From Solea solea (Eukaryota > Chordata > Actinopteri > Pleuronectiformes > Soleidae), in contig NC_081141.1 of NCBI RefSeq assembly GCF_958295425.1, positions 15,037,204-15,101,203 on the forward strand: 64,000 bases of DNA, written 5' to 3'. A model generated the notes under the pieces. That model was not told the origin of the DNA, did not search any database, and was given only the letters and a program-made list of their open reading frames with translations. The translations under genes were made by a program, and so were the position numbers. This document shows, one piece after another, positions 9,776 through 49,000 of this stretch (within the stretch, counting starts at the first letter, position 1; each line of letters begins with the position of its first letter).

Positions 9776-9818
9776 AGTTTACTTTTTTTCTTCTCTTTTT
9801 TAAAGTTCCCTCTTTCTT

Positions 9819-9860
9819 TTTTGAGGTTTTATGGCGGTTGGTGCATTACCGCCACAAGTT
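9819..9860 (-). repeat. LINE 3' fragment (left copy)
   Basis: The block GAGGTTTTATGGCGGTTGG plus GTGCATTACCGCCAC matches the block at 13731-13785 (GAGGTTTCATGGCGGTTGG, GTGCATTAGCGCCACC), apart from a missing stretch of about 17 nt. The right copy continues into LINE coding sequence, so this is a short relic of the same 3' UTR, read on the minus strand. Confidence 0.55.
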
Positions 9861-10024
9861 CTCACCTCCCCAAGTAGTTAAGCAGCAGACACCTTCTTCG
9901 CGTCTTTTTTTTTTACGTTCCACAACTGGTGCAGCTTCTCTTCAAAGTAACATCACGGAACTGTTGGCTGATTGAAAAACACCTGCGCGAAGACGAGCAG
10001 GTGTGTTCAATCTCCTCTTTATGC

Positions 10025-10217
10025 GAGAAGGGTCTAGCTGCAGACCCGCAGACCACTCAACGAAACGCCCCTTTACTCAACGAAACGCCCCTTCACTCAA
10101 CGAAACGCCCCTTTACTCAACGAAACGCCTCCTCACACTCAACGAAACACCCCCTCACACTACCCGACACTCTGATTGGCTCTCAAGAGACTGCGTCTGA
10201 AACGTGATGAAGTTTAC
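10025..10217 (+). repeat. Left terminal inverted repeat
   Basis: The order from outside is a near-palindrome (GGGTCTAGCTGCAGACCC), five tandem copies of a ~20-bp unit (ACTCAACGAAACGCCCCTTT with C/T variants), then CTCTGATTGGCTCTCAAGAG and a GTGATGA..GTTTAC block. The ATTGG is an inverted CCAAT box. It ends 11 bp before the ATG of the internal gene, so it probably holds the promoter and 5' UTR. Confidence 0.8.
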
Positions 10218-10228
10218 GTTGACCGAGT

Positions 10229-12420
10229 ATGAAGAGAGAACCCGAAAAAGTAACACGGTTAAAACACGGGAAAATAACGGAGGAAAAGGTAAGAATAGAT
10301 AAAAAACACATTTAGATATTGAACACTGGATGAATAGTCATTATTTGTATCCATTATATCAATTAAGTGCGGTTTATTAACCAGTTATGTCTGCATGCTG
10401 TAACGATAGCGATTGTAACAGCAAGCAAGACAGCGATTTTCTCCCTTTTTTTCTTTTTTTTCCTTTTTTTCTTTTATTTATATGTACAGGTTATAGCATT
10501 GACAATATAACATTGTCTCATTTTCAACCAAGAAACGTATAAGATAAACTATATGATCTCTATATATTAGTATTTATCTGTTTTTTAATCTTTAAATGAC
10601 TCTGATAAGTTGCACACAGCTTTGCTCATTTGAAAACGTGTGACCTCAGTTGTACAATTGTTAAGATAAAAGATTTGATGATGAATAATATTTTTCATGT
10701 TTAGAAATGAGAAGTTCTGTTGAATCACAGTCAACAGTGTCATTTGATTTGATTTATTTCAGTTAGCCTGCATATATTTTAGAACAGGGAAAGTCTTAAA
10801 GGCAAATGCAGTCCAGTTCATTACTACTTGATTCTGGATTAAAAATGTTCCCATGTTAAAAATACAAAATACAATTTTAATTTACATTTTCTCTTATAGA
10901 GCAACACTACGTTCAGTGAAGGAGCAGACCCTGAGCTGAGGAGATGCGACTCGGACACTTATCAGTGTCCGATCTGCACAAAAAAGGGGAGCTATGCAAA
11001 GCTTGTGTCCCATCTGCAGGGACACCAAAGGTCAATGGTGGAGTACGGTGGTAAGTCCTAAATTATCAAATATTTTTTCATTCCAACGCTGAAAGGCTTT
11101 AATTTCCCCATGAGCCTTATGTATTATTAAATGTGATGTTATTTCTGTTTGTCCTGACCATGGATAACTGTGACCATCAAACTATTCAACTCATCCATTT
11201 GAGTATCAGAAACTCAAAATAAGTAAAGTAAAGTAAACTAATGCTGGAGCCATTTCATCTATGTGTACTGTACTTCATGTGTGTAGAATCTTAAGTCAAT
11301 GTGTATTTTATTTTCACTCTTGTTGAGAATTTAGATATTGAGAAAAAGTTTCAAGATTCCTGCATTTTTATAGATGCCCCTGATAATAATGATTGTTCTC
11401 AGAAGTAATGTAACAATTTGCCTCTCAGACAGGCTTATCTGTATATCCATTTAGGGCAGTGATGTTACTGTGGCCAAACAAGTTGCCAGCCAGGATGACA
11501 CCTCTTATCAGAGGAAGTGCAAATAATCAGGGAAAGAAAATGTCTTATTCAAAGTTCTTAATCACATGTATTCAGTGTTGCATATTATGTGTAATTTAAT
11601 TTTAGGAAAGGGCCCAACAAGCCCAACAGAAGCGACGCGAGGCACGTTGTCTGTTAACCAGTGTAATCACAGAGGATCAGGGCATGCTGCAACACCTTAA
11701 AGTGAGTGACAATGGCATTTAGTGTGGTGTTTGTGTATTTGTATATGAATACCCAAACTAAAATCCTATACAATTTTTATAGAACATCATCACAGGCAAC
11801 ACGGTGTCTCCTTGGGCCAAGAAACAGGACAGGGTCATCCTTCTTTTTGAAGATGATGAACAAGTGGACAAAGTCATGCACTTCTTGTCTGAAGTACTCG
11901 AACGTACTGAGACAGACAAGAGGTTTGCAGATCCAGTGGCATTCGTAATGGATGTACTTTTGCCAGAGGTGAGATCTCAGACACTGACACTGATTTGTAG
12001 ACTACATGTTTTATGTGACTGCATATGTCTGTCTCCTTTTAACACATGGTCACTGTCTAACACAATCTTAAATCTTAATCTTCATGCCACAGGCAACAGT
12101 ATACGCCCTCGGAGCTGTTCACTCCATCTCCCTGGACAAAGCCAAGGAGATGTACATGCGTGGCACAGAGTTTGACTCAAGGTAAGCCGGATAGTTTAGG
12201 AAACTGTTAATCCAATTTTCAGTTTATATCTTATTATGTATTTGAGTGTCTTTAACGACTTCATTATTTTGCTATATCATTTTGTCTTGTCAGCGAGATA
12301 ACCCAGCTTGGGGAACAGCTTCAGAGCCACATTTCCTCAAAAGCGAGGCAGAAACTGGATAGCTTCCTGAGCAATTACAAGAAAGCCTTGGAGTCTGAGG
12401 AATTCCTCAGGCGCCTGTAA
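10229..12420 (+). CDS. C2H2 zinc finger plus MUM1/PWWP3-like C-terminal protein
   Basis: Exons: 10229-10288 (starts MKREPEKVTR), 10900-11050, 11606-11701, 11783-11968, 12093-12181 and 12294-12420, all with GT-AG junctions; AATAAA lies at 12466. Exon 2 encodes one C2H2 finger (CPIC, 12 residues, HLQGH). Exons 3-5 encode a helical region ending in FEDDEQVDKVMHFL, FVMDVLLPE and KAKEMYMRGTEF. This order and wording (acidic FEDEDQ motif, LLPEA, Y-[LM]-RG) is the C-terminal region of the MUM1/PWWP3 chromatin/DNA-repair family. No PWWP domain is seen, and at about 235 residues it is far shorter than PWWP3A. One oddity: exon 2 ends in phase 1 but the family-like frame of exon 3 needs phase 0, so an extra exon or a 1-nt lesion must exist. 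The gene starts just inside the left inverted repeat. DNA or chromatin binding is inferred only. Confidence 0.6.
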
Positions 12421-12959
12421 TCCCTGGGTAGTGAATGTGTCTGCTGGATAGTCTGTTGTGTATAAAATAAAGAAAATATATCATTCATCACTTGTATTCA
12501 TTACATGGATTTGAAAGTTATACAACTTTCTGTGCAGAATCAAGGGTTTCAGTGCATTTGTTTTACTTTCATCAAAAGACCTACTGATGTCCAACTGGCT
12601 GGGTTTGATTCAGATACCAATGTTTCACATATCTTCCTGGAAATAGGTAACATCTCCTTAATGACATACTCAGCAGATCTTGTCTACTTAACTTCTGTCT
12701 ACCACCACCACCTGGACCACACCAGCACAGAATTTTAGGAGGGTTTCTTTCAGGTTAAAAACCTGATCAAGTAGACTTTTATTAGTTCTAATTGTTGTTC
12801 TGTCCAGTTGAACAACATGTCAAACTACAGACTAATAAGACATTCAATAAATGTAGGCCTATATTAAACACACCTTTTTGTAACATACAGGTTGCCATGA
12901 TGTTGGAAGTTTGCAAAAACAAATGAAATTATTCAAAGTGTGTGTTCAAAGTGGAATTT

Positions 12960-13253
12960 GTGATATTATATTGTATAAACGTGATATTATATTGTATAAA
13001 CGTGATATTATATTGTATAAACATTGTATAAACGTGATATTATATTGTATAAACGTGATAATTATATTGTATAAACGTGATAATTATATTGTATAAACGT
13101 GATATTATATTGTATAAACGTGATAATTATATTGTATAAACGTGATATTATATTGTATAAACGTGATAATTATATTGTATAAACGTGATAATTATATCAC
13201 ATAAACGTGATAATTATATCACAAAAACGTGATACTATATTGTGTAAACGTGA
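12960..13253. repeat. 21/22-bp AT-rich minisatellite
   Basis: About 13 units of GTGATATTATATTGTATAAAC or its 22-bp variant GTGATAATTATATTG... run almost without interruption, with one 10-bp partial. It lies between the gene's poly(A) signal and the right inverted repeat. A smaller tandem (TTAGTAAACGTCATCACG) at 13500-13540 links it to the repeat arm. Confidence 0.95.
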
Positions 13254-13523
13254 TGTTCAAAGAACTTTTCCAATCGGCATTTATATATTTTAGCAGTTTG
13301 GCTATAACATTTCATACTTTACAAAGTGACATTAATTATTCACAAATTTCACAGAAAGTACATTTCTGTGTTCATAAAAGTCAACACGAGTTTTTATTCT
13401 TCTCTATTCCTGTCGCACACCGGGATAAAAGTCTCTTGTCAACAAGTGTCTGTGAAATACGCGTGTGTAAATAAAGTTTCAATAAAAGAAGACGTTATCA
13501 CGTTAGTAAACGTCATCACGTTA

Positions 13524-13694
13524 GTAAACGTCATCACGTTTCAGACGCAGTCTCTTGAGAGCCAATCAGAGTGTCGTGTAGTGTGAAGGGGCGTTTCGTT
13601 GAGTAAAGGGGCGTTTCGTTGAGTGAAGGGGCGTTTCGTTGAGTAAAGGGGCGTTTCGTTGAGTGGTCTGCGGGTCTGCAGCTGGACCTACTTG
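13524..13694 (-). repeat. Right terminal inverted repeat
   Basis: This is the inverse complement of 10025-10217 with four instead of five ~20-bp units. It shares the CTGCAGACCCGCAG end, the CTCTGATTGG CCAAT block and the GTGATGACGTTTAC inner edge. Identity is high by eye over most of its length. Confidence 0.8.
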
Positions 13695-13699
13695 CTTTA

Positions 13700-13857
13700 T
13701 GCTGCTGCTGCTGCTTCTTCTTCTTCTTTTCTGAGGTTTCATGGCGGTTGGCAAACAACGATTTGGTGCATTAGCGCCACCATCTGGTATGGAGTGTGGA
13801 TCGAAACGTTGATCTAACTGAACTATTACTTAAAAGTAAAAATAATAAAATAAATAA

Positions 13858-30580: not shown

Positions 30581-33500
30581 ATGCTCCCACAGATGACTTC
30601 CCACCTCTGCCTTCTCATCCTGTCCAGCTTGGCAGTTTCATCCCAACTGGGTGAGTCCATGGTCTTCAGACTGCGAGTTAGTCCAGCCACGATATGGTCT
30701 ACTCTCAGGTTTACTAAAGGCCACTTAACCGCACACTTACCTGATCCGTGTCTGTCTGTGTGTTCCAGGTATGGACAATGTTTTCTTTAGTCCCCAGGAC
30801 CAAACAGTCAGGGAAGGAGAAGGAGTTTCCTTCCAGTGTGTGTCTGGGGAAAGTTCACCTCCTGCGAGCATCTCATGGCTCAAAGATGGAGAGGAGGTCA
30901 CAAGAGGTCGACAGATTCAGGTGCGCAGGGACGGACATTTGACATTGGGGTTCTGTGGCGTTTATTTCATACGTGTCTCATGATGTCACCGGTTAAACAA
31001 ACCTGTGCAAAATGAATATTCATATTCGTTTTTTTTATTGTAATGTTCCGTTGTGTTCACTGGTTTAGGGTGAGTTTGGAGGTGGAAACCAGAAGAAAAC
31101 GTCCGGTACTTTGCGTCTTTTCAATGTCACATTAGAGGACGACGGCATATACATTTGTGTCACTCACAATCCTTTACTGAACATCAGCACCAAGAGCAAA
31201 CCAGCTACACTAACGGTGCAAGGTGAGCACATATACATAAATCATTTGTTCATGCTTTCTTCCACTCATACACCTGCCATTTCACATATTATTCAATATG
31301 TATATACTGTAAAAAACTTTATTTGCAACCAACATTTTGGCAAAGGCAATGCCAACAAAACCCAAAAATATACTATATTTATTATCCAAATAGTGTATGA
31401 TTGACTTTCTGTCATTTGAGTCTTTGCTAGAACATTTGCTATAACCGAGTCTATAAAACTTAAAATCTTAAAAACTTAAAAAAGATTACTGATGCTTTAT
31501 ATCATAAAAATGACTCTCTCATTTTACACACTAACGTATCGATCCTCTGATTGTCCATTTGTCCTGCAGGCATTCCCAGACGACTGCAGATCATCCAGGG
31601 CCCTGACAACATCACCGTCGCCATGGGAACAGAGGTCTCCATGCACTGTACTGCTCATGGCTTCCCCGTTCCCATGGTGCACTGGTTCAAAAACGGCTGC
31701 CACCTGACAGACTGTTCAGCCCTGTTCAGCCTGCAGAACAATGGACAGCTGCTCACATTCAGGTCTGACACTGCACCAGACAAGACGAATATTAATCACT
31801 TAGCAAATTTGAATTGTTATAATAACGATGAATCGAGATGCGCTGAGTTTATGGTTCATATGGACAGAGCACATGTCAGAGTGAAACTGCAACATTGGAC
31901 ATGCTGTTGTATGTACACCTCAAATATATCTTTATGTACTTTTATGTTTTTTTTCAGGTTAGAACGCATTGAATATGTCGTCAGTTTATTTAATATCTTG
32001 GCATGTGACTCAAGAGGTGAACGTCAGAGTAAAGCATTTTCTCATGCGACCTGGGGCGACCACTGAGCAGGAGGGGGCCGGTTAAGTAAAAAATCCCAAA
32101 AAAATACAACATGATGATGGGAAAAAAACAACATAACAATGCTGTATCATGGCATTGTAATAACTATCTCTGTGACGATATATTTGCCCGAATTTCAAAA
32201 TTAAAGTGTGTTGCTTTACAATAAAAACATATTCATGACGCAGTGTGAATCTAATGATTAAACACGAAACGTACAGAAATACTTCATTATGACTTGATAT
32301 TGGAGGCAGGCCGCGAGTTTGGGACCTGTGTTGTAAATTCTTCTGCAAGATAAAGCTATAGTTTGGTCTCACAAATCGAATCAAATTGAGGGTAATTATT
32401 GCAATTTTGCTGAATGCAAAGATGGTATTTGTTGCTATCAGTTCATTAGGTAAAGCTGAATACGAGCAGTTTTTCTCAGCTTTTGTATTTTTTAATTGAT
32501 CTATGTGTAAATATATCACCACAGTTAAAAATTAATAAGTCACTACAGAATATTTTAAATAAAAATTTACATTACATCTGGGATCGGTTAAACAAGTGCT
32601 AACCCATCCCAGATCACCGTCACGTGTGGCAGTTCCGGTTGCATGTACTTTAACCTGTATCTGTTTTTACCACCATAACTCAGAAGCTGTTTTGATCCGT
32701 TCAAAAAAGTTTTTTATGATTCATACTGATATTATTCTTCAGGCATGTGGCCAAAGAGGACGAGGGCTTGTATCACTGCGAAGCATCGAACCAGAAAGAA
32801 ACAATCAAGTCCCAACCAGCCTTTCTACTAGTGGCTGGTAATGTGTTTGACATCAACCACAGATTTCATTGCAGGATTATGTGTGTTTTTTTTTCCCCGA
32901 AATAAGTTAGAAATTTAGGAAATGTATAGTTTCAGCTTTGGACAATGCCATTTACAACAACTTAAAATCAAGTACTTTTTTTTTTTGCCCTATTAAAAAA
33001 CACTTTATTCACAATTATTTAATCAAATACATTTGTAAATATTAACATTTTGACTAACATTTGAATTATTTTATAAACTGCTTTAATAATTTAATCTATT
33101 ACTGATTTATACATCTCTATGTGACCATTTCAATATCAAAAAAGCATTCATCTGTCTCTGGCTCAGAGACAGATGGAAGAGGAAATAAGACAAACTAAAG
33201 TCCAATTAATAAGGAAACATTTTTGAGAGCTGCTACACTGTATACACACACACACACACACACACAGTATGACACATATTGTGTTTCCAGAAATGGACTG
33301 GAGTTTTGCACAGCAGCCCATGAACCTGACAGTAAAGAGAGGTGAGAATGTGACAGTCACATGCAGACCTCCATACAGCAAACCAGCAGCCCAGGTCACC
33401 TGGTTCAAAAACAACCAGCCTCTCACATCTACAGCTCATGTAACTCCACTGCCGAGTGGAGACCTCTACTTCTTCAGGTGCGTGTGCATCGTATGTATTG

Positions 33501-36500: not shown

Positions 36501-39449
36501 CAACCCAGCCTCTGCTGCCTTCCCAACAACGTCCAGCTTCAGTCGCCGCGTCTCAGCCGTCCCATGTTCACAGTCGGCCCTTCACAACCAAACCCACTTC
36601 CTCACAACCTCAGCTATCTTCAGTGCAACCACTACAGCCCTCAATCTCAACCATCGACACACATGGCGAGATCTCCAATCTGATGACACCGGCCCCTGAG
36701 TTCCATGTCGTCCCACAGTTGAACCAGTCTGAGCCGGAACAACTAAATGAGACCCAGCAGGGTGACCCAGCTCAATCAGCCAAATCAACCAATGACACTG
36801 AGCTTTCAGAGTGGCTGAAGAGGAACACATCCCAGTCACCGATGACCAGTAATGATCCCAGGTAGGTCATATTAAAGTAAACGGAACAATGGCTATTTCA
36901 TGCTACTAATGCATTTAAAAATGTTTGGTGTGTGCAATTTAGGAAGCAGACATTAAACTTACAGAAGCATGAATAGCCTTGCATTTCCGATTTGTATGTG
37001 TAATGTGGGAAATTATTATTATAATTATTCAATTAAATTATATACTAGTGGTGCCTGCCCCACTGGTGCCCTTTTAATTTTCGCCCCTGCCCTCCCAAAT
37101 GTCTGTGCGCACCACTGAGTTTCACCATTGGACGTCACTAACCCTCACTGTGTCTTTCAGCATGCAGGTACACACCTCTTATCGTAAGTGTGGGTCATTG
37201 GAAAAACTTTGCCTTTGTAAGATAGTGTAAGGTGATTAAAACTTCCGCTGTTGATCAAAAACATTTACATTGTCTTTTATTAGTTAGCCCTGAGTGATTC
37301 AACGTGGCCTTCAATGAAAGAGGGATTAGAGCATTGCTGTGTGATGTATGGTTTGTCTTTGCAACTTTCTCTCTGCATCTTTTGCTGACAGCTTACAGGA
37401 AATAGTCGGGGTTGGTTTATTGAAAAACAGGAAGTCAATCGGACTGTAAAGTGTTGTGCTACAGGGACAATGTGCAGCTGTTGCATCAGGAATCAAACTC
37501 GTGGTGTGCTCACGGTCGTCCATTTTGGGTCTGCACGCAGAAATTAATGCCATTTACATTTGCGATAAGTACATAACGCTGACCCTAATTGATGTCTGCA
37601 GACCTGCAGATGCAGAAAGTATGAACTGGCCCTTTATGCACCATTAATGTAAAAAACGTGTAGCGAGATGTCACTTCTGCTTGTCCTGTACACTCCAGAG
37701 TGACCCAGCCGTCATGGCTGCCCATGGTGGAGAAACATGACATCCCTATTGTTGTGGGGGTGGGTGTATCCTTGGCCTTCATCTTCATCACTGTTATGTT
37801 CTATTCTGTGGTCCAGAAAAATCCACCTGTACCCACAAACCGAGCAGGTCAGAAAACCAAATATCAAATATCATGACACTAAATTCTGAGCATATTCAGA
37901 GCAAACCAGTTCGTAACAATTTCTTCAAAGCCTAATTACGTGTCCCCCAACAGCTCAGAGAAATCTGGGTGTACCTGCACGAAACCCTGACCGCCGTGCT
38001 GCAGGACGTACGTATGAAAACAGGTGAATTCACTGTTACTAGGCAGTAACACGCTGACCGCGCAATTGATCATTTCAGCTCTATATGTAAACGAGACATT
38101 AAATCCGAGCATCGTGTTCCTTGCACAGAGCTTTTGAAGATGACGACTGCGTGGCTGTGATCGAGCAGAGTCCTTACACGTCAGACACCCGAGCCCGACC
38201 TCCAGGGCCCAGTCTGGTCACAGTGCAGATGGAGCCCTCAGCTGAGGATCTTCACGAGGATACACAACTGACTCTGGACAACCACTCAGTCTCTGTGGAG
38301 ACTTATCATGAGGCCATTCTAGACACAAAGGTTTGATGACAAACACACACATGTTGAAACATCTGCAGGTTGCAGAAACTGGGGAAGAAAATCTATAAGA
38401 GAGTGAGGAAAGAATATGTTTTCCCCTCAATCAATTAAAGTACTGGTCAGCTTTTGTTTTCATGCCAAACTAAGAGTCATTTTATACAACTTAAGGTTTG
38501 TTGTCCTTGCAATTCTTAAATTATTGCCAAAAACAGATGATACAGATGTAGTATTATTACATGTTACATTACATGTCATTTAGCAGACGCTTTTATCCAA
38601 AGCGACTTACAATGGAATTGAGTACAATCAGCCAGGGGTGGAGTCGAACTTGCGACCATGATGTCTTTCACACACAGGGTACCGGTCTTAACCACTGAGC
38701 CACTCCACCCTAGTATAAGTGTTGCTTATGTGCTAATAGTTATAGATGAGTTCAGCTGAGGCCACATGTGCTTTTAATTGATGTCATACTTCTTTCTGCT
38801 TTAGTCCATTTGTGCTGGTGGAATTCATGCGCTCATCATTGCCCAGTTCAGATCACATCCATCAGTCTTGATCCTTCTAATCCACGCCAACCATCATTAT
38901 CACCACCACCAGTGTCTGGAATCTAAGGGGATTAACCTAGTTGCTGCACAATCCTAATCTCAAATTTTCCTCCAACAGAATGTTCAATGCACTATGAATA
39001 TAGATATATAAGAAGTGTATTCTTAAATATTTCAGATTGATCCTTCCCTGGAGGAGGAGAAGGGCTGCACTATGTCCCAGCCCAACATCCAGCTGCAGTG
39101 TGCCGAGGACTGGACCAGTAACAGAGGGGACAACCACAGCCTGTGTCAGGATCCTTTGCCTCCTCCGTTGTCCTTACCTTCCTGTTCCCCTTCCCCCTCT
39201 CCTCCATCGAGGCGTGAAGAGGGCCTGCACACCTCGTTGACCCTACAAAGTCCAGAGCAGTGTGCAGCACCGCTCCACCACAGCCTCAGCATCTCACATG
39301 GCAACCCTCCCCTGCTCCTGTCTCACCACCTCTCCTTGGGTCTCACTACGGTTGCTGTTGATGTCCATTTTTACCCACCAGCCACTGCTTCAGCGGCAGC
39401 CGGCACCAGCACCGGCACCCAAGTCAATTCAGTCCCTCACTCCACCTGA
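30581..39449 (+). CDS. Five-Ig single-pass receptor with S/T/P-rich stalk, unassigned IgSF member
   Basis: Coding exons: 30581-30650, 30769-30920, 31069-31222, 31570-31762, 32743-32837, 33291-33477, 33545-33642, 33717-33873, 33949-34067, 34264-34425, 34521-34634, 34962-35014, 35761-35848, 36069-36861, 37161-37183, 37701-37847, 37954-38023, 38129-38330 and 39036-39449. The sum is 3291 nt, frame-exact, 1096 residues. Order: signal peptide (LCLLILSSLAVSS), five Ig domains of I-set type each split over two exons (about residues 26-123, 127-220, 223-315, 318-407, 410-500; motifs ISWLKDG, DGIYIC, VHWFKN, GLYHC, VTWFKNN, GSYFC, MSWIKRG, GVYVC, GEYYC), a linker, a Ser/Thr/Pro/Gln-rich stalk encoded mainly by one 793-nt exon (about 548-812), a TM helix (about 835-857, IPIVVGVGVSLAFIF) and a ~240-residue tail with acidic and Pro-rich parts. 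It is a type I cell-surface adhesion or signalling receptor by architecture. No FNIII repeats or kinase domain are present, which excludes DCC-, classical Robo- and RTK-type proteins. I do not recognise the family. Confidence 0.8.
38550..38712 (-). repeat. tRNA-derived SINE in receptor intron 18
   Basis: On the minus strand it begins GTGGCTCAGTGGTTAAGAC (A box) and has CGCAAGTTCGACTCC (B box), as in a Ser-type tRNA-derived head. It is followed by the common teleost core containing AAGCGTCTGCTAAATGACATG, whose complement is at 38576-38596. It is not a functional tRNA gene. Confidence 0.75.
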
Positions 39450-46005: not shown

Positions 46006-49000
46006 TTAAAGTTCAGTTGACGGTTTCCTTGGTTTTGCCTCGTCCTCATTTCGCGGAACATGGAAGCCCACGTATGGACACCACTTGGTGTTGAGACACA
46101 CCAGCTTCTTCAAAGTGGCAGTTTTCACTATGTCGAAGCCTGTTTCTCCTCCAAATGTGCTCGGTTTCCAGTACTGAGGGGAGCAGAGTGGGTTTCCCAT
46201 CAGGCCTTTCAGGGAAAAGGGGGCACCCATCTCCACCATACTCTCACCAAATATACCATCGGGACGAGTTTTCTCCAACAGGACTCCTGTGTAGAACTCT
46301 AAAGCATCAATGTCCCCGTAGAGTTCCTCTAAACCTCTGGCCATGTCTTTGTCATCTGTGGAAAAGAGGAACATGTTGGCAATACATTGATAAAAAAAGA
46401 TGACACCACAAAATGACTCTTTCTCACCAGTGAACTCGTCAAAGGAGGTGTAAGGCTTTAGGTTAAACTTCTTCCTGTATTCATTGAAGGGCTGAACACG
46501 TGCTGCTCTGGACTCTTTGATCACCATTCCTGTCACTTTGAGCACAGCTTCATGCGTGTTGTGACCTCCACCAATCTGACAAAGAGGGAAAAAAGTGTTA
46601 TTTCAATGAAACGTAATGTCCTTAAGGTAACAATACTCACTAGTCAATGTTACTGCAAATTTTCCCATCATGGGACTTGTGAAGATTATCTTATCTTTTT
46701 ATGAAAAGGAAGTAGACTCCGCTTTAATATAGATGAGTAAAAAAAAAAACCCCAGAGGTTTAGGTTATTTTAAATATCCGTTGTGTCTTTTCACTGGAAG
46801 CACAAAGGCCTCTTTCTCTGCAATAGTTTAGTGGACTCATAATAGGAAATACATCCACCTATTTGTTTAATGGAGGACAGGGAAATGCATGATATTTGCC
46901 TATGCCATAACAATGATGTCATACTATGGCATGGCAGAGTTATTAGTTTGGATACTGGGACACCAGGAAATTAACGATTTTAGCCACCTAACAAACTGCA
47001 AAAATCTACACCAGATCGAAGTGGTAGAAGTATACACTATCTGAAGAATATGTCTGCTGCTTTATCCTTTCCCACTTTATCCCTTGGACAGATTCTGGAT
47101 TAAAAACTTTTTAAAAATGTGTTTTGTACATGGCATTGCTTTGTAAAATGCTTGCACACAAGTCCATGGAGAAAATTAACTCAGCTGTATTTAAAGACCC
47201 CCACGGAGTGGGGGAGAAGTGTTGTTTTTAGTGGCTCTGTGTGTCTGTCTGCCTGTCTGTTTGTGTTTCTGCACTTTCACTTGCCAATATGACCAGAGGC
47301 CGACAGACGCTTGTTGTGTGAATGGGGTGAAGTTTGCCATTTCTGATTGCCTTGTTTATGCACTGTTTTGCCATAATTTTTCAGACTCTTTTGTTCCTCT
47401 TGATTTCTGTTTGTGCATTATCAGTTCTGCCTCATGTTGTTCTTTCTTTGTTTGCTTAATGCCATTTACGTGTGCTACGTATATTGCACTTTGTTTGAAA
47501 AGTGCAATATAAATAAAGTCTGATTGATTGATTGATTGATAGATAATCAGCCAATAAAGCTATCAAACTAAAAATACTATGGCTGTATTTGTCCTCAGGT
47601 TAACAGTCTCACCTGTCCTGCAGGTTGACGAGAGAAACCATCCACCAGTTTCTCCACACCATAATGCATGAGAAGCGAGGTGTTGTAAAGAAACTGGGAG
47701 TACGGGATTTCATCCCCGTCGATGAGGAAGCTGTCGGGCATCAGCGGATGCCAGTGGTAGAGGTGGCAGAACTCCAGGGCAATTCGGTTGCTGTACTGAA
47801 AACGCACGTTGAAGAGCAGGGAGGGATCAAACTTAAGCTTCAGGTGGTAGCCGCTCAGCTGCTGCACATACTCTTCGATGATGATGTTGATGATCTCCCC
47901 TGGGTGGCAAAAAAATTATCACTTGATATTACATGCTCATTCCATGTTTGGATGTATCATTGAATGGTTTAATACTGAAGAATCCAAAGACGTTCAGCTA
48001 CAAACACATGTGACAAAATAAACCAACCAATATTTGACATATTTGGCAAAGCACACATTAGCTGCCAAACATCACTTCATGTTCATACTCGTGGGGCCCT
48101 CACCAATGATGATGAGTCTGCTGGTCTGGAAAAGCTGTTCATCGTCCCAGGTGGGATGCTCTGCCTTAAGGATGTCACACACCCTGTTGTGCTCCCTCAG
48201 CCATATGGTTGCATACACAGTGAGACCCGGCAGGAGGCCAAATATCTCGTGACCAATGACCAGACGTTGCTGTGCAGGCAAACCCTCGGGGTACACCATG
48301 TGCACGGGGACCTCAGTTACTGACGGGGGATACATCTCACCATTCACTAACTGAGACAAAACAAACACATCATCTGTTAATAGTGTTGTTTGGGGTGTGT
48401 TAAGCTGTAATAGCAGAACTGAAGTCACTCAGAAACAAGATAGAGCGTGCTAAGAGGAAGTTGCCTCTGAAACCCTGATTACAAGTCTAAGAAAGGAAAG
48501 CTAATGTTGTATATGCTGTCAGATAGCCTATGCAAAGTAGGTCTCTCAGTTAGTTCTCAGAAACAAATAGGAAGTGAAGACTTTAAGCATTCACGTTATT
48601 TAAGGATAGCATAAAAATAGCATAATATCAGTGTGAATAAAGGAGATATAAGCTGCTTATTATTATTTTTTCATCCATCTATCTGTATAAAAAAAACACA
48701 TGTACATTTTATTACCTGATATTTCAGTTTTCCATCTTCATGAAGCCGTAGTTGAAGCTGCCGCATGAGGTTTTCTCCATAAATTTGACTTGCATCTACC
48801 TGAGTGAGTTAGAGAGAAACACATTTCCTACATCCATCCATTTTCTATCTTTCACGTGAGAGTTGTGGGGGGGTGGGTGGAGCCAATCACAGCTTGCGTG
48901 AGGCAAAAGGTGGGATACACCCTGCACAAGTCGCTAGTGCATTGCAGGGCCAACATATAGAGACGATAAAGTGGTCAATTTAGTGTGTCAAATTAACCTA

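Follow-up and report, generated by a model that had tools for sequence, protein, structure and literature searches.

The nearest described case that we found to the element reported here is Ssk-FB4 of Drosophila (PMC8277862), whose duplications measure 9–10 bp and whose repeats span ~700 bp, and for which the parent gene is known. Like the animal Pack-TIRs as a group, it is a non-autonomous terminal inverted repeat (TIR) element with long repetitive arms, intron-bearing exons, differing duplications and an unknown transposase; that study gives four multicopy Pack-TIRs for its reference genomes, in frog and alligator. Chromatin-related cellular domains are carried as cargo by fungal TET/JBP-carrying transposons (KDZ, hAT7 and others; PMC12730594), and host protein-coding pieces occur within a TIR element in Turmoil-1 of C. 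elegans (PMC2572040). Here we analyse a unit at positions 10025–13694 of a 64,000-nucleotide stretch of the common sole, Solea solea (C27:15037204–15101203, hereafter the window), against the sole genome (642,106,991 bases, 211 contigs). The unit is very probably a member of a young, non-autonomous TIR family present in many copies in common sole, and a deleted derivative of a resident element combining zinc fingers with the C-terminal domain of PWWP3A/B (PWP3A-B_C).

The sole element works like a multicopy Pack-TIR (PMC8277862) and has exons of a non-transposon gene between its TIRs. It differs from Ssk-FB4 in its 8-bp duplications, in its arms of 171–193 nt and in a cargo that appears old and resident rather than freshly captured; indeed, the PWWP3 block is already present in diverged copies. 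Turmoil-1 has its coding pieces inside the inverted repeats, whereas those of the sole element lie between them. The fungal TET/JBP families, as described in PMC12730594, have a different cargo domain and a transposase beside it, whereas none was found in the predicted protein of the window copy or in the 10 of its 33 listed open frames that were scanned, in keeping with the initial annotation, which had described a unit carrying no transposase. A literature search, with repeat databases outside its scope, returned no published description of the sole element.

The ends of the element and its flanks are as follows.

10017–10024, unstranded: left 8-bp target-site duplication, CTTTATGC (flank comparison and end comparison across copies)
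10025–10217, plus strand: left terminal inverted repeat, 193 nt, with 20-bp ACTCAACGAAACGCCCCTT subrepeats (at least 44 own-genome matches, including the window's own)
12960–13254, unstranded: AT-rich 21/22-bp minisatellite with many AACGTGAT (repeat scan and motif count)
13524–13694, minus strand: right terminal inverted repeat, 171 nt (arm alignment and end comparison across copies)
13695–13702, unstranded: right 8-bp target-site duplication, CTTTATGC (flank comparison and end comparison across copies)

Inverted repeats of 171–193 bp with an octamer at both ends had been reported in the initial annotation, and both are confirmed. Of 165 aligned positions in the arms, 161 are identical and 4 mismatched, the left arm having one additional 22-nt subrepeat; each arm holds four exact ACTCAACGAAACG motifs, these eight being all the exact occurrences in the window. 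The octamer is the only stretch of 6 nt or more that the two flanks have in common (60 and 68 bases compared), and of 200,000 random placements 209 gave a repeated 8-mer at equal offset (0–20). The outermost 6 nt differ between the ends, GAGAAG on the left and CAAGTA on the right, hence we considered whether the octamer fails to mark the boundary. This was rejected, as other copies end in the same way: of the 20 fetched loci flanked by a perfect duplication (described below), all have CAAGTA on the right and 19 have GAGAAG on the left, with CAGAAG in L040. The recurrence of these hexamers shows them to be the true, asymmetric termini.

Copies of the element are numerous in the sole genome. A search with the left arm (201 nt), in which 40 of 197 candidates were scored and the match count is hence a lower bound, gave at least 44 matches including the window, at least 19 of them at ≥99% identity over the full 201 nt. 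Around these matches 34 further loci were fetched, 30 of them two-ended and four one-ended. Perfect 8-bp duplications flank 20 of the 30 two-ended loci and comprise 14 different octamers, to which the window octamer adds a fifteenth; the flanks of the remaining 10 do not match, and several of these loci have a truncated or doubled end or contain a nested insertion. Exact copies of the 20-base terminus number 167 in the genome (80 + 87; control pattern 0 + 0), and among the 100 of these termini that were listed there are 33 inward-facing pairs less than 15 kb apart, 20 of which measure 3,359–3,738 bp. The suggestion that this is a mobile element with many copies, the same ends and different 8-bp flanks is thus borne out. 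Mean divergence is 1.2% over the 5′ 2.8 kb of 15 perfect-duplication copies (the window included and the TCGGGAAG locus counted once), which indicates a young burst. One further pair of termini, at G000:C1:22733714–22734231, lies only ~0.5 kb apart and is probably a short miniature inverted-repeat transposable element (MITE) form of the family.

Seven of the loci share the octamer TCGGGAAG together with identical 200-bp flanks, and therefore represent one duplicated locus, which was either copied by segmental duplication in recent times or duplicated in the assembly. These loci (L016, L017, L018, L020, L021, L022 and L023; three on C39 and one each on C21, C19, C17 and C4) are found either on small contigs or no more than ~1.1 Mb away from where a contig ends. 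When joined, their flanks match a site without the element, L060, at 88.8% over 313 nt, and this paralogous uninterrupted site has the octamer region once, with two mismatches. With shared ends, variable 8-bp duplications and one paralogous empty site, the unit at 10025–13694 is a class II TIR DNA transposon.

All 17 occurrences of the motif AACGTGAT in the window are inside the element, 16 of them within 12978–13533, close to the right end; the stretches bearing it are 12960–13254 and 13492–13540, and it may serve as a binding motif. In copy L039 the 22-bp array is much longer than in the window copy. Outside the element, a 28-nt sequence occurs on either side of it in the same orientation (9814–9841 and 13724–13751, 93% alike), and resembles the tails of a non-LTR (long terminal repeat) element.

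The superfamily was also considered. The initial annotation had placed the unit with hAT-type insertions, and an 8-bp duplication does fit hAT in length. However, length is the one feature that points there, and we neither retain the assignment nor put another superfamily in its place: no hAT transposase was present in the scanned frames, and neither termini nor octamers look like those of hAT elements. Those typically have CA-type termini and an nTnnnnAn target, whereas the sole element ends in the two hexamers given above and its octamers have T at position 2 in three of 15 cases and A at position 7 in three of 15. The duplication length fits KDZ/Zisupton too, since Zisupton makes 8-bp duplications (PMC12730594), and the same frames contained no KDZ transposase (PF18758).

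The arms enclose a gene, split into six exons by GT-AG introns and followed by a poly(A) signal, as had been proposed. Its parts are listed below.

10229–10288, plus strand: coding part of exon 1 (MKREPEK...); exons 1–2 are identical to Solea solea protein P0004 at 69 of 71 residues
10900–11050, plus strand: exon 2, encoding the C2H2-like zinc finger 1 in the frame opened by ATG 10229, and with an internal ATG at 10994 (finger seen by eye, below Pfam cut-offs)
11051–11605, plus strand: intron 2, with a junction near 11436/11437 where other copies have a zinc finger 2 and Ser/Thr block (copy comparison)
11606–11701, plus strand: exon 3 of the PWP3A-B_C (PF20886) protein (spliced model)
11783–11968, plus strand: exon 4 of the PWP3A-B_C protein (spliced model and copy comparison)
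12093–12181, plus strand: exon 5 of the PWP3A-B_C protein (spliced model and copy comparison)
12294–12420, plus strand: exon 6 of the PWP3A-B_C protein, including the stop codon (spliced model and copy comparison)
12466–12471, plus strand: AATAAA poly(A) signal (sequence scan)
12853–13694, unstranded: 3′ block common to copies without the PWWP3 exons, of which L032, L036, L038 and L039 resume at 12853 (copy comparison)

The zinc finger and PWWP3-like parts had been taken as one gene, which does not hold for the window copy. The phase at the end of exons 1–2 is 1 and that of exon 3 is 0, therefore the two parts do not form one protein here: the spliced zinc finger frame from ATG 10229 stops at 11698, while the frame of the 184-aa PWWP3-like protein opens at the internal ATG 10994. 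A mechanical scan of intron 2 gave nine AG..GT intervals which would restore the frame, none with a GTAAG- or GTGAG-like donor. Copies L009, L013 and L029 have an 11-nt deletion in the first zinc finger of exon 2 and L011 a 17-nt deletion, and the longer start of the protein P0002 resembles, by eye, the product of such a deletion.

Comparison with profiles upheld the PWWP3-like description in part. The PWWP3A/B C-terminal domain PF20886 was detected in the spliced model (E = 4.9e-23, 82.1 bits against a cut-off of 27) and in protein P0001 (E = 4.4e-23, 82.2 bits), whereas a Pfam profile scan found no PWWP domain in either. P0001 represents a cluster of 46 proteins and bears the name ‘PWWP domain-containing DNA repair factor 3A-like’ [Solea solea]; it is identical to the 184-aa protein at 181 of 184 residues; a chromatin-factor-like cargo annotated as PWWP3-like in fish, as the initial annotation had suggested, is therefore present. 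The element protein has its C-terminal domain in common with PWWP3A and PWWP3B (MUM1) and differs from them in being short, in lacking the PWWP domain and in having zinc finger exons beside it. Relatives outside Solea came only from Trematomus and Dissostichus, in an exact-word search by which absence elsewhere means little. The predicted structure of P0001 is weak (mean pLDDT, the predicted local distance difference test, 60.2), with no match for its fold in the PDB at E ≤ 0.001, and a viral sequence collection held neither an exact match to the terminal repeat nor a relative of P0001.

Other copies of the family have a different middle. L038 shares window positions 10025–11436 and 12853–13694, and L039 shares 10031–11436 and the block from 12853, where it runs off the fetched stretch; in both, a zinc finger 2 and Ser/Thr block replaces 11437–12852, with a third zinc finger visible by eye. 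This corresponds to protein P0004, which beyond the exon 1–2 region has a second cysteine/histidine-rich stretch, read by eye as zinc finger 2 where Pfam names no finger, followed by Ser/Thr repeats. Both blocks occur together in the diverged copy L073, where zinc finger 2, Ser/Thr repeats, the sequence preceding exon 3 and exons 3–4 lie within 1,101 bases, 80% identical to the window DNA over 516 nt. Upstream of exon 3, L073 has only weak exon homology to P0005 (9 of 300 shuffles were equally good). Among 15 listed diverged loci, with 51–65% protein identity, seven have a zinc finger 2-like match 0.54–0.91 kb upstream of a PWWP3 exon on the same strand, and four have an exact element terminus 0.9–1.4 kb away, among the termini listed. 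At C24:7.9 Mb and at C25:26.9 Mb (a copy of 6.0 kb), zinc finger 1, zinc finger 2 and exon 6 follow in order between two termini, the order being taken from listed matches. From L073 and the C24 and C25 copies, the PWWP3 block seems older than the young burst. The simplest reading of these sequences suggests an older element with all blocks; the middle block would then have been lost in the window form and the PWWP3 block in the P0004 form, a direction of change that we infer from the block arrangements.

On this reading, a transposase encoded elsewhere would recognise the long arms with their 20-bp subrepeats and move the element in trans, each insertion creating an 8-bp duplication. The family has its own multi-exon gene, and the element protein would be carried along. 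Its older form would encode zinc finger 1, zinc finger 2, a Ser/Thr-rich tract and then the PWWP3A/B C-terminal domain, while the window copy and its close kin would be internal-deletion derivatives without the middle zinc finger block. Loss of that block would have broken the frame between exons 2 and 3, leaving the 184-aa PWP3A-B_C protein readable only from the internal start.

Several observations weigh against this interpretation. No transposase or autonomous partner was found in the predicted protein and scanned frames, nor in relatives that were read in part. The 8.6-kb L041 (whole) and the 12.3-kb L042 (part) showed, by eye, nested retroelement-like frames and no transposase for these ends; in these copies long retroelement-like open frames interrupt the elements (L041 4085–8943, L042 1254–5701). 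Joined flanks, compared with the fetched sequence rather than the whole genome, gave an empty site for one of 15 distinct insertion sites; this single paralogous case, L060 for the TCGGGAAG locus, is what bears out the empty-site expectation of the initial annotation. The diverged lineage was read as DNA in one copy, L073, without its ends, and the two different blocks may, with lower probability, have been gained independently at the same place.

One rival explanation takes the zinc finger/PWP3A-B_C protein to be a functional accessory factor of the transposon, which might for instance direct insertion or repair at chromatin and would be maintained by selection acting on the lineage of the element. 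The gene is present in two sub-lineages, and in four of the 15 listed diverged loci it lies near the same termini. Between the window and L073, dN/dS (nonsynonymous to synonymous rates) is 0.36, with proportions of nonsynonymous (pN) and synonymous (pS) differences of 0.157 and 0.361 (87 codons used, 7 skipped). However, the introns of this pair are 86% identical and diverge no more than the replacement sites, being about as conserved. Once identical or contained sequences had been removed from 58 young copies, 33 distinct ones remained; across these, diversity at codon positions 1, 2 and 3 is 0.0104, 0.0153 and 0.0120 and in introns 0.0164, hence all vary alike, and exons 3–6 are intact in 19 of the 33 and not intact in 14. 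The young burst shows no sign of protein-level constraint, and the fusion frame is lost in the multiplied form. We therefore regard an accessory role as unlikely. A broader version can be put forward as a tentative and rather doubtful idea, in which an old vertebrate transposon lineage fused zinc fingers to a chromatin/DNA-repair C-terminal domain and kept the product as its accessory protein while sub-lineages diverged (e.g. for steering insertion or repair), the sole burst consisting of parasites without the fusion.

Recent Pack-TIR capture, in which the middle zinc finger block was replaced by host PWWP3-like exons 3–6 including their introns and the product then multiplied, appears quite improbable. 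It would fit the finding that copies of the window type and of the P0004 type have the same two outer blocks and are unlike each other only between them, and chimeric fragment-carrying elements are known in animals (PMC8277862). Against it stand L073, where both blocks are adjacent, and the copies at C24 and C25, whose listed matches run from zinc finger 1 through zinc finger 2 to exon 6. Segmental duplication of a host gene family that is flanked by inverted repeats by chance could explain the sevenfold TCGGGAAG locus with its identical flanks, but has a negligible probability given 15 different perfect octamers (14 fetched and the window's) and an empty site.

Elsewhere in the window, a UnaL2 LINE (long interspersed nuclear element) 3′ element lies at 38570–38623 on the minus strand, and the open frames at 46006–46602 and 31551–32066 resemble, by eye, a prostaglandin synthase C-terminus and an immunoglobulin-domain gene, respectively.

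The deleted, non-autonomous TIR family of common sole, as we interpret it, offers a clean vertebrate case of a transposon with a chromatin-factor domain as cargo, in which deleted and fuller forms coexist within a single genome, and makes it testable whether such cargo serves the element. At least some of the sole gene models that go by the name DNA repair factor 3A-like are copies of a mobile element, and gene models of this kind would distort gene-family counts.

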